Below, in pieces: positions 12,202 to 17,556 of a DNA stretch of 64,000 bases. The translations under genes were made by a program, and so were the position numbers. The notes under the pieces were generated by a model that saw only the letters and a list, made by a program, of their open reading frames with translations, was not told where the DNA came from and did not search any database. Origin of the DNA: Tautonia plasticadhaerens (lineage in GTDB: Bacteria > Planctomycetota > Planctomycetia > Isosphaerales > Isosphaeraceae); NCBI RefSeq assembly GCF_007752535.1, contig NZ_CP036426.1, positions 7,936,001-8,000,000 on the forward strand, written 5' to 3'. The stretch's first letter is position 1. Each line of letters opens with the position of its first letter.

Positions 12202-12285
12202 TTCGCGGTGCCGCCCGCGACTCACCGAACCGTCAGCCGGCCTCCCGGCGATGATCACGAGGCCCTTCGGGACTGCGACCGGACG

Positions 12286-13539
12286 ATGACGGGAGACCTC
12301 CGCACGATCCTGAACGTCCACGGCGACGGCGAGACGAGGGCGGCCGTCTCGAACCTGCTCAGGGCCGAGGGGATGCGTCCCCGAGACCTGGCCTCGGCCG
12401 ACGAGGTCCTCGCCGTGCTCCGGAGGCCCGGGGCCGAGGGGGCGGGGCTGGCCCTGGTCGACGCCTCGCTCGACGAGGCCGAGCCGCTCTGCCGGGCGTT
12501 GAAGGGCGGTCCGGGCCACTGGCTGCCGCTGCTGCTGACCCGATCGGCCGACGCCGACCCGCCCCCCTCCCTCTCGGCCCTGGCCGACGACGTGCTGCAA
12601 CGGCCGCCCGACCCCGGCCCCTGGATGGCGGCCGTCCGGGCCTGGCTCCGGGTCGGCGCCCGGCTTTCCGAGTCCCGGGCCGAGGCCGGCCGCTGGCGGG
12701 AGATGCTCGAGGCGATGGAGGAGGGCCTGGCGATGGTCGGCCCCGACGGGGCGATCCGCTGGTGCAACCCCGCCCTGGCCGAGCTGCTGGGGGCCGAGCC
12801 CCGGGACCTGGTCGGCCACCGCCTGGCCGACCGGGCCTCCCACCTCATCCCCCCCGGCCGCCCCTGGCCGCTCGACCGCACCCTCCGGGGCGGCGGCCGC
12901 CTGCGGGACGAGTGGGAGCTGGGCCGCCGCTGGCTCCGCTCCACCTCGGCCCCCCTGCGGGACGACCGGGGGGCGATCGGCGGCGCCGTCGCCTCGCTGG
13001 AGGACGTCTCGGCCGAGGTCCACCTCCGCCAGCGGGTCGCCCGGGTCGAGGGCGAGGCCGCCGCCCGGGAGCAGCAGATCGAGCAGCTGGAGCGCGACGC
13101 CCGGCTCTACCAGGCGCTGGCCGGCATCGACGGCCGCCCGGGGGACCGGGCACGCCACCGGCCGTCGATGAGCCAGGCCCTGCCGGGGTTCTTCTGCGAC
13201 GCGGTCGAGCAGTACGGCCGGGTGCTCGACCTGCGGCTCCGGCGCCGCGGCTACCTCGTGGAGGACGAGCCCGACGGCTCGGCCGAGCTGACGACGCTGG
13301 CCGAGCGGCTCGCCGACGCCGGCGCCGGCCCCCGGGACGTCGTCGAGCTGCACGCCCTGGCCCTCCGTCAGCGCTCCTCGGGGGCGCAGTCGGCCAAGGC
13401 GAGGGCCTTCGCGGAGGAGGCCAAGGTCGCCGTCCTCGAACTGATGGGCCGGCTCGCCGAGCACTACCGCGCCGGCCGGGGCGCGGCGGCTCGGCCCGTG
13501 ACGGCCCCCCCGGGGCCGTCCCCGGGACCGTCGGAGTGA
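12286..13539 (+). CDS. Receiver-PAS-coiled-coil protein with C-terminal KaiA/RsbU-N-like domain
   Basis: 417 residues in four parts. Residues 5-122 resemble a response-regulator receiver (LALVDASL with Asp59 in the phosphoacceptor position, although the acidic pocket and Lys are not clear). Residues about 136-244 form a PAS domain ([20 protein letters not shown] and following). Residues 244-276 are a coiled coil. Residues about 297-396 form an all-helical domain whose pattern, with [12 protein letters not shown] followed by a last helix ending [10 protein letters not shown], matches the C-terminal domain of KaiA (VVEIHMxLM ... LxxLxEMYR) and the related RsbU N-terminal domain. The stop lies 7 bp before kaiB. 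In cyanobacteria KaiA binds the KaiC tail and promotes autophosphorylation. The domain call is an inference from pattern similarity. The ATG at 12286 begins the receiver-like part. Confidence 0.6.
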
Positions 13540-13546
13540 CCGCTTC

Positions 13547-13858
13547 ATGGACCGCTATCTCCTCAAGCTATATGTGACCGGGCTGACCTCCCGGTCGCAG
13601 CGCGCCATGGCCACGCTCCGCCGCCTCTGCGAGGCCGAGCTGGCCGGGCATTACGAGCTGCTGGTGGTCGACGTCCTGGAGCGCCCGGAGCTGGCCGAGC
13701 GGGACAAGGTCCTGGCCACCCCCACCCTGATCAAGGAGCTCCCCGAGCCCGAGCGGCGGATCATCGGCGACCTGTCCGACCCGGCCCGCGTGCTCGCGGC
13801 ACTGGAGTTGCAAGCCGCCACCCGCCCTTCGGAGCCCACCGCCGCGGAGGCCGATTGA
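13547..13858 (+). CDS. kaiB: Circadian clock protein KaiB homologue
   Basis: 103 residues, the usual KaiB length. The thioredoxin-like start LKLYVTGLT, the helix with [13 protein letters not shown], the strand [14 protein letters not shown], and [26 protein letters not shown] align along the whole family. KaiB switches fold and binds the KaiC CI ring, opposing phosphorylation and releasing output kinases. It is encoded 7 bp after the receiver-PAS gene and 7 bp before kaiC, so the three are almost certainly cotranscribed. Confidence 0.95.
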
Positions 13859-13865
13859 CCCGACC

Positions 13866-15383
13866 ATGTCGATTTCCAAGCTGCCCACCGAGATCCACGG
13901 CTTCGACCTGATCGCCTGCGGCGGCCTGCCCGAGGGGCGCGCCACGCTGATCGCCGGCTCCTCCGGCAGCGCCAAGACGGTCTTCGCCGCCCAGTTCCTC
14001 GCCGCCGGCATCATGGAGCGGCGGGAGCCCGGGGTGTTCGTCACCTTCGAGGAGACGCCGGAGGACCTCCGCAGCAACTTCCTCGGCCTGGGATGGGACA
14101 TCGCCTCCTGGGAGGCGGCCGGCCTCTGGGCCTTCGTCGACGTCTCCCCGGAGCCGGGAGAGCCCCCCATCTTCGCCGGCGGCTACGACCTGGGGGCCCT
14201 GATGGCCCGGGTCCAGTACGCCGTCAAGAAGGTCGGCGCCAGGAGGCTGGTCCTCGACGCCCTGGGGGGCGTCTTCAGCCAGTTCCCCGACGAGACCACC
14301 GTCCGGGCCGAGCTGTTCCGCCTGACCCGGTCCCTCCGGGGCCTGGGCGTCACCGCCCTGATCACCGCCGAGCGCGGCGAGGAGTACGGCGCGGTCTCCC
14401 GGTACGGCGTCGAGGAGTTCGTCTCCGACAACGTGATGATCCTCCGCAACGTCCTGGACGAGGAGGTCCGGCGCCGGACCCTGGAGATCCTCAAGTTCCG
14501 CGGCACCGACCACCTCAAGGGGGAATGGCCCTTCACCATCGTCCCCGGCCGGGGGATCGTCGCCATCCCCCTGGCCGCCCTGCAGCTGAAGCAGAAGTCC
14601 TCCGACGTCCGGATCTCCTCCGGCAACCCCCTGCTGGACCAGATGTGCGGCGGCGGCTTCTTCCGGGACTCGATCATCCTGGTCAGCGGCGCCACCGGCA
14701 CGGGCAAGACCCTGCTCTCCACCGAGTTCATCGGCGGCGGCGCCCGCTCCGGCGAGCGCTGCCTGCTCTTCGCCTTCGAGGAGAGCCGGGAGCAGCTCTT
14801 CCGCAACGCCTCGGGCTGGGGCACCGACTTCGCCACCATGGAGGCCGACGGCCTGCTGAAGGTCGTCTGCACCTACCCCGAGTCGACCACCCTGGAAGAC
14901 GCCCTGATCCTGATCAAGGAGACGATCGACACGTTCCGGCCCCACCGGATCGCCATCGACAGCCTCTCGGCCCTGGAGCGGGTGGCCCCCGTCAAGAGCT
15001 TCCGCGAGTTCGTCATCGGCCTGACCTCCACGATCAAGGACCAGGAGGTCCCCGCCCTGTTCACCGCCACCACCGACAGCCTGATGGGCGGCTCGTCGAT
15101 CACCGAGGCGCACATCTCCACGATCACCGACTCGATCATCCTGCTCCGCTACGTCGAGCTCTTCGGCGAGATCCGGCGCGGCCTGACCGTGCTGAAGATG
15201 CGCGGCTCCTGGCACGAGAAGGTGATCCGGGAGTTCACCATCGACGGCTCCGGCCTGCACGTCGGCTCGCCGTTCCGCAACGTCTCCGGCATCCTCTCCG
15301 GCGTGCTCTCCCACGCCGGGGCTTCCGACCAGGAACGCCTCGAGAACCTGTTCCGGGACGACCTCCCCCCCCGTCCCGGCTGA
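13866..15383 (+). CDS. kaiC: KaiC, two-domain RecA-like ATPase/kinase
   Basis: 505 residues with tandem CI and CII domains. CI has Walker A GSSGSAKT (31-38) and the Glu pair E62/E63; CII has Walker A GATGTGKT (275-282) and E305/E306. The phosphorylation segment SITEAHISTITDSIILL keeps Ser418 and Thr419 (equivalents of Ser431/Thr432 of the cyanobacterial protein) and Thr413 with the same spacing. After KMRGSWHEKVIREF comes RNVSGILSG, corresponding to the A-loop, and a short C-terminal tail. The protein should therefore autophosphorylate and autodephosphorylate rather than act only as an ATPase. It is preceded by the KaiA-like gene and kaiB and followed 118 bp later by a SasA-like kinase gene. 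Confidence 0.95.
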   Translation: MSISKLPTEIHGFDLIACGGLPEGRATLIAGSSGSAKTVFAAQFLAAGIMERREPGVFVTFEETPEDLRSNFLGLGWDIASWEAAGLWAFVDVSPEPGEPPIFAGGYDLGALMARVQYAVKKVGARRLVLDALGGVFSQFPDETTVRAELFRLTRSLRGLGVTALITAERGEEYGAVSRYGVEEFVSDNVMILRNVLDEEVRRRTLEILKFRGTDHLKGEWPFTIVPGRGIVAIPLAALQLKQKSSDVRISSGNPLLDQMCGGGFFRDSIILVSGATGTGKTLLSTEFIGGGARSGERCLLFAFEESREQLFRNASGWGTDFATMEADGLLKVVCTYPESTTLEDALILIKETIDTFRPHRIAIDSLSALERVAPVKSFREFVIGLTSTIKDQEVPALFTATTDSLMGGSSITEAHISTITDSIILLRYVELFGEIRRGLTVLKMRGSWHEKVIREFTIDGSGLHVGSPFRNVSGILSGVLSHAGASDQERLENLFRDDLPPRPG

Positions 15384-15501: not shown

Positions 15502-17556
15502 ATGGACGGACCGACCGAGCGGACAGGAGCCGCCGCCGCGATGCAGGACCACCAACCCGCCGAGGGTGGCGACCCCCCATTCCGGCGGATCGTCGAGAAC
15601 GGGGCCGACGGCGTGGTCGTCCTCGACCCCGAGGGCGCGATCGTCTACGCCAATCCCGCCGCCGCCGCCCTGCTCGGCCGGCCGATCGAGTCCCTGAAGG
15701 GCCGTCCCCTGGGCCTGCCCGTCTTCGCCGGCCAGTCGGCCGAGATCGACGTGCCCGGCCCCGGCGACACCCCCCGGGTCGTCGAGCTCCGCCCCATCCG
15801 GGCCGACTGGTCCGGCCGGCCGGCGCTGCTGGTCGGGCTGAGGGACGTGACCGCCTATCGCAAGCTGGCCGACGGCCAGCGCTTCCTCGCCCGGGCCGGG
15901 GCCGAGCTGGCCCGGTCGCTCGACCTGCCCGAGACGCTCGACCGGATCGCCCGGCTCGCCCTGGAGCACCTGGCCGACGGCTGCCTGATCGACCTGGTCC
16001 GGCCCGACGGCAAGATCTGCCGGGAGCGGGCCCGCCACGACTCCCCCGACCTCGACGCCGCGATGGCCCCGCTCCGGGACGGCGACTGCGTCCCTTCCGG
16101 CGGCCCCTCCGGGCTCCCCCGGGTCCTCCGGACCGGCCGGCCGAAGCTGTTCAACCGGGCCACCTTCCCGGCGATCGACTCGCTGACCGGATCCCCCGCC
16201 AGGAGGGAGGTCGTCCGGGCCCTGGGGGTCAACTCGCTGCTGATCCTGCCGCTGGTCGCCCGGGGCCGGACCCTGGGCGCCCTGACCCTGCTGGCCACCC
16301 GCCCCGGCCGCTGCTTCTCGGCCGCCGACCTGCCGGCCACCACCGAGCTGGCCCAGCTCGCCGCCCTCGCCCTGGATGACGCCCGGCTCTACGAGGAGGC
16401 CTGCGAGGCGGTCCGCCGCCGGGACGAGTTCCTGGCCATGCTCTCCCACGAGCTGCGCAACCCCCTGGCCTCGATCGTCCACGCCTCGGCCCTGCTCCGG
16501 GACGCCTCGGCCCTCGGGGCGGGGCAGCGCCAGGCCGTCGAGGTGGTGGCCAAGCAGTCCGAGCAGATGTCCCGGCTGCTCGACGACCTGCTGGACGTCT
16601 CCCGGGTGACCCGGGGAATCATCCGGGTCGACCGCCGTCGGGCCGACCTGCTCGACGTGGTCGACCGCGCCCTGCAGGCCGCCCGCCCGGCGATCGAGTC
16701 GGCCGGCCACCGGCTGCACTTCGACCGCCCCTCCGGCCCCATCCCGATCGACGGCGACCCGGCCCGGCTCTCCCAGGTGCTGGTCAACCTGCTGACCAAC
16801 GCCGCGCGATACACCCCCCCGGGGGGGAACGTCTGGCTCGAGGTCGACGCCGGGGGGGGGCAGGCCCAGGTCGTCGTCCGGGACGACGGGCTGGGGATCG
16901 AGCCCGAGCTGCTGCCCCGCATCTTCGACCCCTTCATCCAGGGCCGACGGGACCTGGATCGGTCCCAGGGCGGGCTGGGGATCGGCCTGACCCTGGTCAA
17001 GACGATCGTCGACCTGCACGGCGGCGCGATCTCCGCCTCCAGCCCCGGGCCCGGCCGGGGCAGCTCCTTCCGGCTCCGGCTGCGGACCGCCCCCCCCTCC
17101 CCCGACGGGGACGGCGTCCCCGCCTCGGGGGCCCCCCCGGGCGGCCCGATCCCCGAGGCCGGCCGGCCGCTCCGGATCCTGATCGTCGAGGACCACGAGG
17201 ACAACCGGGAGATGCTCCGCACCCTGCTGGAGATGTCCGGCCACCGGGTCGAGACGGCGGCCGACGGCATCGAGGCCCTGGACGCCCTCCGGAGGAAGCC
17301 GGACCTGGCCCTGCTCGACGTGGGGCTGCCGGGCATGGACGGCATGACGCTCGCCCGGGCCGTCCGGGCCGACCCCGATCTCTGCGGCCTCCGCATGGTC
17401 GCCATCACCGGCTACGCCCGGCCCGAGGACCGGGAGGAGGCACTCTCCGCCGGCTTCGACGCCCACCTCCCCAAGCCCGTCCCCATCGAGGAGCTGGACC
17501 GACTGATCGCCCTGCTCCCCGACGGGCACCCTCGCCTGCCCCCCCCGAGCCCCTGA
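15502..17556 (+). CDS. Hybrid histidine kinase PAS-GAF-HisKA-HATPase-REC (SasA-like output candidate)
   Basis: 684 residues: PAS domain (about 25-120), GAF domain (about 130-298), dimerisation domain with phosphoacceptor His316 ([10 protein letters not shown]), HATPase with N433 in the N-box, DDGLGIEP and [11 protein letters not shown], then a C-terminal receiver with acidic residues E563/D564, phosphoacceptor Asp606 ([11 protein letters not shown]) and Lys658. It is a cytoplasmic sensor with no membrane segments. Its place 118 bp after kaiC suggests it reads out the Kai oscillator, as SasA does in cyanobacteria, but it lacks SasA's KaiB-like N-terminal domain, so direct KaiC binding is uncertain. 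The ATG at 15541 is an alternative start with AGGAG 11 nt upstream. A strong hairpin follows the stop. Confidence 0.9.

Follow-up and report, generated by a model that had tools for sequence, protein, structure and literature searches.

The kaiC gene of Tautonia plasticadhaerens, analyzed within a DNA stretch of 64,000 nucleotides (the window), most probably encodes a KaiC3-type clock kinase and stands third in a kaiA3-kaiB3-kaiC3 module, in which KaiA3 would stimulate the kinase cycle and KaiB would antagonize it. We put the probability of this reading at roughly 0.7. The sequence features, the clade, the synteny, the KaiA-like predicted fold and the co-occurrence of a KaiC tail motif with KaiA3 were established directly. 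Because all residues for two-site phosphorylation are kept and the KaiC tail tracks the presence of the activator, the system probably belongs to the recently described KaiA3-KaiB3-KaiC3 type and works as a KaiA-driven timer.

Catalytic residues and phosphosites of KaiC

The gene and its catalytic features were located as follows.
13866..15383, + strand: kaiC, KaiC3 type, 505 aa, ATG start (open reading frame, Pfam, alignment, tree)
13956..13979, + strand: CI Walker A motif GSSGSAKT, residues 31-38 (motif, alignment)
14049..14054, + strand: CI Glu pair E62-E63 (alignment)
14688..14711, + strand: CII Walker A motif GATGTGKT, residues 275-282 (motif, alignment)
14778..14783, + strand: CII Glu pair E305-E306 (alignment)
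15102..15122, + strand: phosphosite segment T413-E-A-H-I-S418-T419 (motif, alignment)

The kaiC product matched PF06745 in two copies (Pfam, E=6e-109). Alignment with Synechococcus elongatus KaiC, for which the reference sequence was identical to PDB 1u9i, showed 274 of 503 residues (54%) to be identical. T426, S431 and T432 of S. elongatus KaiC corresponded to T413, S418 and T419, the Walker A lysines K52 and K294 to K37 and K281, and the Glu pairs E77/E78 and E318/E319 to E62/E63 and E305/E306. R226, R385, R393 and K457 were all kept, as R212, R372, R380 and K444. The features that mark a KaiC3 protein, namely two RecA-like ATPase domains, Walker A motifs with Glu pairs, and S/T phosphosites in CII, were thus found in the window KaiC. 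The alignment bore out the preliminary description, which had reported a T-E-A-H-I-S-T segment with the spacing of Thr426/Ser431/Thr432 and had taken both Walker A motifs and both Glu pairs to be intact; its coordinates and residue numbers were correct. The best PDB match of the window KaiC was 8zn5 (690 bits), which may be a reconstructed ancestor.

The phosphosites were compared among 85 distinct KaiC3-type proteins, collected by a scan of species genomes and further genome searches and including one, the second KaiC copy of locus L133, that falls outside the main clade. The triplet was T/S/T in 68 proteins, T/S/S in 12 and S/S/S in 5, and loss of any of the three sites was seen in none of the 85. 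The preliminary description had set the retention of the sites against their loss in other KaiC proteins. The sites are retained here, but this is not unusual among KaiC3-type proteins, and loss was seen in three other KaiC-like paralogues of the same genome, which carry Q/S/Y, A/S/Y and H/S/H. Since retention is ordinary within the KaiC3 group, it gives no argument for the ordered two-site phosphorylation with a KaiA-type activator that the preliminary description had built on it. These phosphosite-less, double-domain paralogues lie at G000:C1:2006626-2008008, G000:C4:24873-26243 and G000:C4:116769-118151 (G000 being the window's genome and C4 a small contig).

It is very improbable that the gene encodes an ordinary KaiC-like ATPase without kinase function, in which the phosphosite residues are retained for structure. 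Although the identity of the site residues alone is no proof of phosphorylation, all 85 KaiC3-type proteins have S or T at each of the three sites and exchange one for the other, which would be expected were the hydroxyl the conserved feature, and the distant paralogues of the same genome lost the sites.

KaiC clade and distribution

A tree of 107 KaiC proteins was built by a quick method; its inner forks were often weak, and the split between KaiC1 and KaiC3 is the part relied on. The window KaiC and its genus-mates were grouped with a support of 100, and sequences of Isosphaeraceae, Planctomycetales and Chloroflexota stood near them. The window KaiC belonged to a group of 83 that included cyanobacterial KaiC3 and was split from cyanobacterial KaiC1 with an SH-aLRT of 95. 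The cyanobacterial KaiC1 clade itself had a support of 100, and the window KaiC lay outside it. Identity was 66% to cyanobacterial KaiC3 versus 52-55% to KaiC1. The phylogeny proposed in the preliminary description therefore placed the window KaiC with KaiC3 and apart from KaiC1; the clustering with KaiC-like ATPases lacking clock function, named there as a refuting outcome, was absent from the tree. A KaiC of the window type was present in 5 of 294 planctomycete genomes, a patchy distribution across the phylum, and all five carried a KaiA3-type gene.

The A-loop

15273..15317, + strand: A-loop equivalent FRNVSGILSGVLSHA, residues 470-484, KaiC3 type (alignment)

The RNVSGILSG segment (residues 471-479) and the C-terminal tail (about residues 484-505) had been interpreted as an A-loop and a KaiA-binding tail. 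Both align in place, but E487-R488 of the KaiC1 A-loop is replaced by S474-G475, and the A-loop gives no evidence of KaiA. The segment resembled that of KaiC3 (FRNISGILSG), not that of KaiC1 (FRNYERIISGSPTR), and the window KaiC had neither of the marks of KaiC1, placement in the KaiC1 clade and E487/R488 in the A-loop. An earlier paper took the absence of E487/R488 to point to phosphorylation that does not depend on KaiA (PMC5520375), yet Synechocystis KaiC3, with an A-loop of the window type, responds to KaiA3 (PMC11372060). Because KaiC3 proteins without E487/R488 include a KaiA3-responsive one, the A-loop is uninformative on KaiA control either way. Its use as proof of such control was dropped, as these residues are missing in KaiC3 proteins generally.

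The same residues bear on the alternative of an hourglass timer over which KaiA has no real control; in it KaiC would phosphorylate itself according to ATP/ADP, KaiB would reset it, and the upstream PAS protein would be a separate adaptor or output. In KaiC1, E487/R488 hold the A-loop buried, and their loss speaks for such an hourglass, as do the KaiBC system of Rhodobacter sphaeroides (PDB 8dba, 8fwi), which has no KaiA and acts as an hourglass (according to PMC11372060), and the weak KaiA homology of the upstream C-domain at the sequence level. The Rhodobacter system likewise consists of a non-cyanobacterial double-domain KaiC and a KaiB. However, its KaiC is of the KaiC2 type with a long C-terminal extension, which the window KaiC lacks (505 versus 568 aa), and the window KaiC scored 317 bits to it versus 575 bits to Synechococcus KaiC. 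In view of these differences, the response of Synechocystis KaiC3 to KaiA3 and the strong co-occurrence of the KaiC tail motif with KaiA3 described below, we consider such an hourglass improbable.

A KaiA3-like gene upstream of kaiB

The genes upstream of kaiC and their domains were located as follows.
12286..13539, + strand: kaiA3-like gene, 417 aa, receiver-like domain, PAS domain and KaiA-type C-domain
12304..12657, + strand: degenerate receiver-like domain (AlphaFold model, Foldseek matches to CheY-type receivers, alignment columns)
12706..13017, + strand: PAS domain, PF08448, E=1.1e-12 (Pfam)
13183..13488, + strand: KaiA-type four-helix C-terminal domain (AlphaFold model, structural alignment, KaiA3 family profile)
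13547..13858, + strand: kaiB, 103 aa (PF07689, E=2.8e-26; PDB KaiB, E=2.5e-26)

The start of the kaiA3-like gene was set at the ATG at 12286, which matches the N-termini of the genus-mates; the open reading frame list has a GTG at 12208. The receiver-like domain did not match Pfam Response_reg at E<=1. It kept the phospho-Asp equivalent D85, lost a residue of the acidic pair (G39) and had Arg in place of Lys (numbering from 12208). Because one acidic residue and the Lys are lost, phosphorylation of the receiver is doubtful even though the Asp is kept, and a ligand bound to the PAS domain may be the signal instead.

The C-terminal domain fell into no clear Pfam family, and the Pfam profile of canonical KaiA, PF07688, had no match in the window's genome at E<=10. 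In a structure search with the whole protein the receiver matches dominated, and the C-domain was therefore modelled alone. AlphaFold predicted a four-helix bundle, with pLDDT of about 90-98 for most of residues 321-420. KaiA C-domains made up 8 of the top 9 chains aligned to this model (VIA-align Z 10.2-11.2, rmsd 2.2-3.6, about 90-100 residues). The RsbR-type stressosome domain 3zta reached a Z of 10.4, a near tie with KaiA, and other helical bundles reached 8-10. Because of this near tie the fold alone cannot settle the family of the C-domain, which synteny and the sequence profile do settle. At the sequence level the resemblance to canonical KaiA was faint (PDB profile E=0.15; hhalign probability 24%). 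The profile-profile score between KaiA3 and KaiA was 26.1, versus a mean of 12.4 and a maximum of 23.5 in 60 column-shuffled controls and 20.2 in a reversed control, which is supportive, not decisive.

A profile was built from planctomycete C-domains alone, and an enlarged version of it matched an open reading frame in 66 of 80 KaiC3 loci, nearly always immediately upstream of kaiB-kaiC. The matched loci span Chloroflexota, Pseudomonadota, Myxococcota, Bacteroidota, Acidobacteriota, a Helarchaeote and others. They include Roseiflexus and Chloroflexus, genera for which KaiA3 is already published (PMC11372060). The profile also matched an open reading frame beside kaiB in a Synechocystis-like genome (G045, locus L140), where the kaiA3-kaiB3 pair is separate from kaiC3. 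Because its profile recognizes these kaiA3 loci as well, the open reading frame upstream of kaiB is best read as a KaiA3 orthologue. It has the traits of KaiA3, a predicted KaiA-like four-helix C-domain, membership of the KaiA3 sequence family and a position upstream of kaiB.

Judging from the domain matches, the N-terminus of the KaiA3 family appears to be an exchangeable sensor (receiver, PAS or protoglobin). At loci L064, L069, L073, L088, L097, L107 and L115 the KaiA3-type protein carried one to several PAS domains or, in L115, a receiver and PAS as in the window. In a Methylobacter sp. MAG (L109:4600-5718), a KaiA3-type protein upstream of kaiB-kaiC carried a protoglobin domain at its N-terminus (PF11563, E 1.7e-33) and is possibly an oxygen-sensing KaiA.

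Kai homologues in Legionella and Pseudomonas act in stress response, and the window genes might likewise form a stress-response module and not a clock, with PAS/receiver sensing gating KaiC and no daily rhythm. The exchangeable sensors, the occurrence of the C-domain fold in the stress-signalling proteins RsbU/RsbR, and a host genome in which a profile search for the photosynthetic reaction-centre protein PF00124 gave no match are consistent with this alternative. A search for rhodopsins also gave no match, but its controls gave none either, which deprives it of weight. The closest characterised relative, however, oscillates (PMC11372060), and we regard a stress module as somewhat unlikely. 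The stress and clock readings are compatible, because sensing could feed a timer, and the probabilities that we attach to them overlap.

Co-occurrence of the KaiC tail motif with KaiA3

15333..15362, + strand: C-terminal tail motif ERLENLFRDD, residues 490-499, predicted KaiA3 docking segment (tail comparison, co-occurrence)

The tails of KaiC3 proteins followed the pattern E-(I/L)-(D/E)-R-(L/I/M)-x-x-(M/L)-F, defined post hoc after the tails had been inspected. The window version is E490-R491-L492-E-N-L495-F496, and the motif occupies the position of SELSRIV in KaiC1. A first count found it in 67 of 70 KaiC3 proteins with a KaiA3-type gene and in one of ten at loci without one nearby. A whole-genome search of all ten showed that in L070, the one exception, a KaiA3 gene lies at another place in the genome. 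The final count was therefore 68/71 in genomes with KaiA3 versus 0/9 in genomes without (Fisher p about 1e-9, a value that ignores kinship, the nine KaiA3-less cases representing about four lineages). The tails of two Anaerolineae, one planctomycete and one Halomonadaceae without KaiA3 were clearly degenerate or missing, and five KaiA3-less Gemmatimonadota retained a related form, E-R-(I/V/A)-W-x-x-F. With a looser pattern, the counts were 71/71 with KaiA3 versus 5/9 without (p 8e-5). The KaiA-type activator supposed in the preliminary description is supported by the KaiA3-type gene directly upstream of kaiB and by this co-occurring tail motif. In an uncultured Isosphaeraceae MAG (L062) the motif was present and KaiA3 was not found; the contig stops just upstream of kaiB, the expected place of kaiA3.

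Operon structure and neighbouring genes

KaiB retains LATPTL and RRIIGDLSD. The stop-to-start gaps are 7 bases between kaiA3 and kaiB and 7 bases between kaiB and kaiC, which suggests that kaiA3-kaiB-kaiC may be co-transcribed as one unit. A TATAAT lies at about 12197, before the kaiA3-like gene; a promoter scan gave no candidate better than chance. Two genus-mates share the gene order, with KaiB and KaiC 81-87% identical, and in both a hybrid histidine kinase gene follows kaiC, as in the window.
15502..17556, + strand: hybrid histidine kinase PAS-GAF-HisKA-HATPase-REC, downstream of kaiC (Pfam)

This kinase is a possible input or output partner of the Kai module. In Roseiflexus and a sister planctomycete genus a histidine kinase gene lies directly upstream of kaiA3. 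The cognate kinase of KaiA3 is still to be found (PMC11372060), and the histidine kinases adjoining kaiA3 are candidates.

Other arrangements were also observed. Five loci of genus g13 in the same family (L045-L049) have histidine kinase - kaiA3 - kaiC with no adjoining kaiB and S/S/S phosphosites; kaiB was found elsewhere in 4 of the 5 genomes. A Candidatus Helarchaeota archaeon MAG (L100:4604-9366) carries a tandem kaiA3-kaiB-kaiC-kaiB-kaiC, for which contamination is possible, and a Thiotrichales MAG (L133) carries two tandem kaiA3-kaiB-kaiC sets, the second with a highly divergent KaiC. Weak KaiB-profile matches were seen at L040-L042.

Comparison with known systems and proposed mechanism

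The Synechocystis sp. PCC 6803 KaiA3-KaiB3-KaiC3 system (PMC11372060) shares with the window a KaiC3-clade kinase, T/S/T sites, the same A-loop type, a KaiB, and an upstream protein with a receiver-like N-terminus and a KaiA-type C-domain. The gene order kaiA3-kaiB3-kaiC3 of most published cases (PMC11372060) is also that of the window. Unlike Synechocystis, the host is a planctomycete without PF00124 proteins, its KaiA3-like protein adds a PAS domain and has a degenerate receiver, and a hybrid histidine kinase gene follows kaiC. With the KaiABC system of S. elongatus (KaiC1) the window shares all catalytic and phosphosite residues, the tail location and a well-conserved KaiB. It differs in the clade of KaiC, in S-G at E487-R488, in the tail motif (ERLENLF versus SELSRIV) and in having no PF07688 KaiA.

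From these homologues we infer how KaiC would cycle as a kinase, how KaiA3 would bind it and how KaiB would sequester KaiA3. KaiC would form an ATP-bound double-ring hexamer, the CII ring of which would autophosphorylate at S418 and T419 with T413 assisting; stimulation of this two-site autophosphorylation by KaiA3 is likely. The KaiA3-like protein would grip the KaiC tail (ERLENLF) through its KaiA-type C-domain and shift KaiC towards its kinase state. Once phosphorylated, KaiC would recruit fold-switched KaiB onto the CI ring, where KaiB would sequester KaiA3, and KaiC would then dephosphorylate, so that the module would work as a timer or as a damped oscillator. Input probably enters through the PAS/receiver-like N-terminus of KaiA3 and through the hybrid kinase encoded next to kaiC.

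No biochemistry on planctomycete Kai proteins turned up in the literature searched. The Synechocystis proteins gave a damped oscillation in vitro (PMC11372060), and a review (PMC12378183, citing Mukaiyama 2025) states that sustained oscillation in vitro was not obtained with any Kai set from other bacteria or archaea. On that account we consider a damped oscillator or an hourglass no less likely than a genuine circadian clock.

Significance

In 2017, KaiA was regarded as exclusive to cyanobacteria, and other bacteria were credited with no more than KaiBC timers (PMC5520375); in 2024 KaiA3 was described, and five non-cyanobacterial genera were reported to have it (PMC11372060). The related Synechocystis system is already published, and what is described here is a planctomycete KaiA3-KaiB3-KaiC3 module. 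The set is now seen in planctomycetes and about ten further phyla (phyla as deposited, mostly MAGs). A bolder reading, to which we give less than even odds, is that a non-phototrophic planctomycete has a complete KaiA-driven oscillator cued through a PAS-bearing KaiA3 and not through photosynthesis, and that KaiA3 is a large family in which sensors of exchangeable kinds are joined to a single type of C-domain that grips KaiC and has coevolved with the KaiC tail motif. The short tail motif indicates which KaiC3 proteins likely own a KaiA partner, and the module offers a cheap, direct way to ask whether non-photosynthetic bacteria have clocks with a KaiA-type activator.
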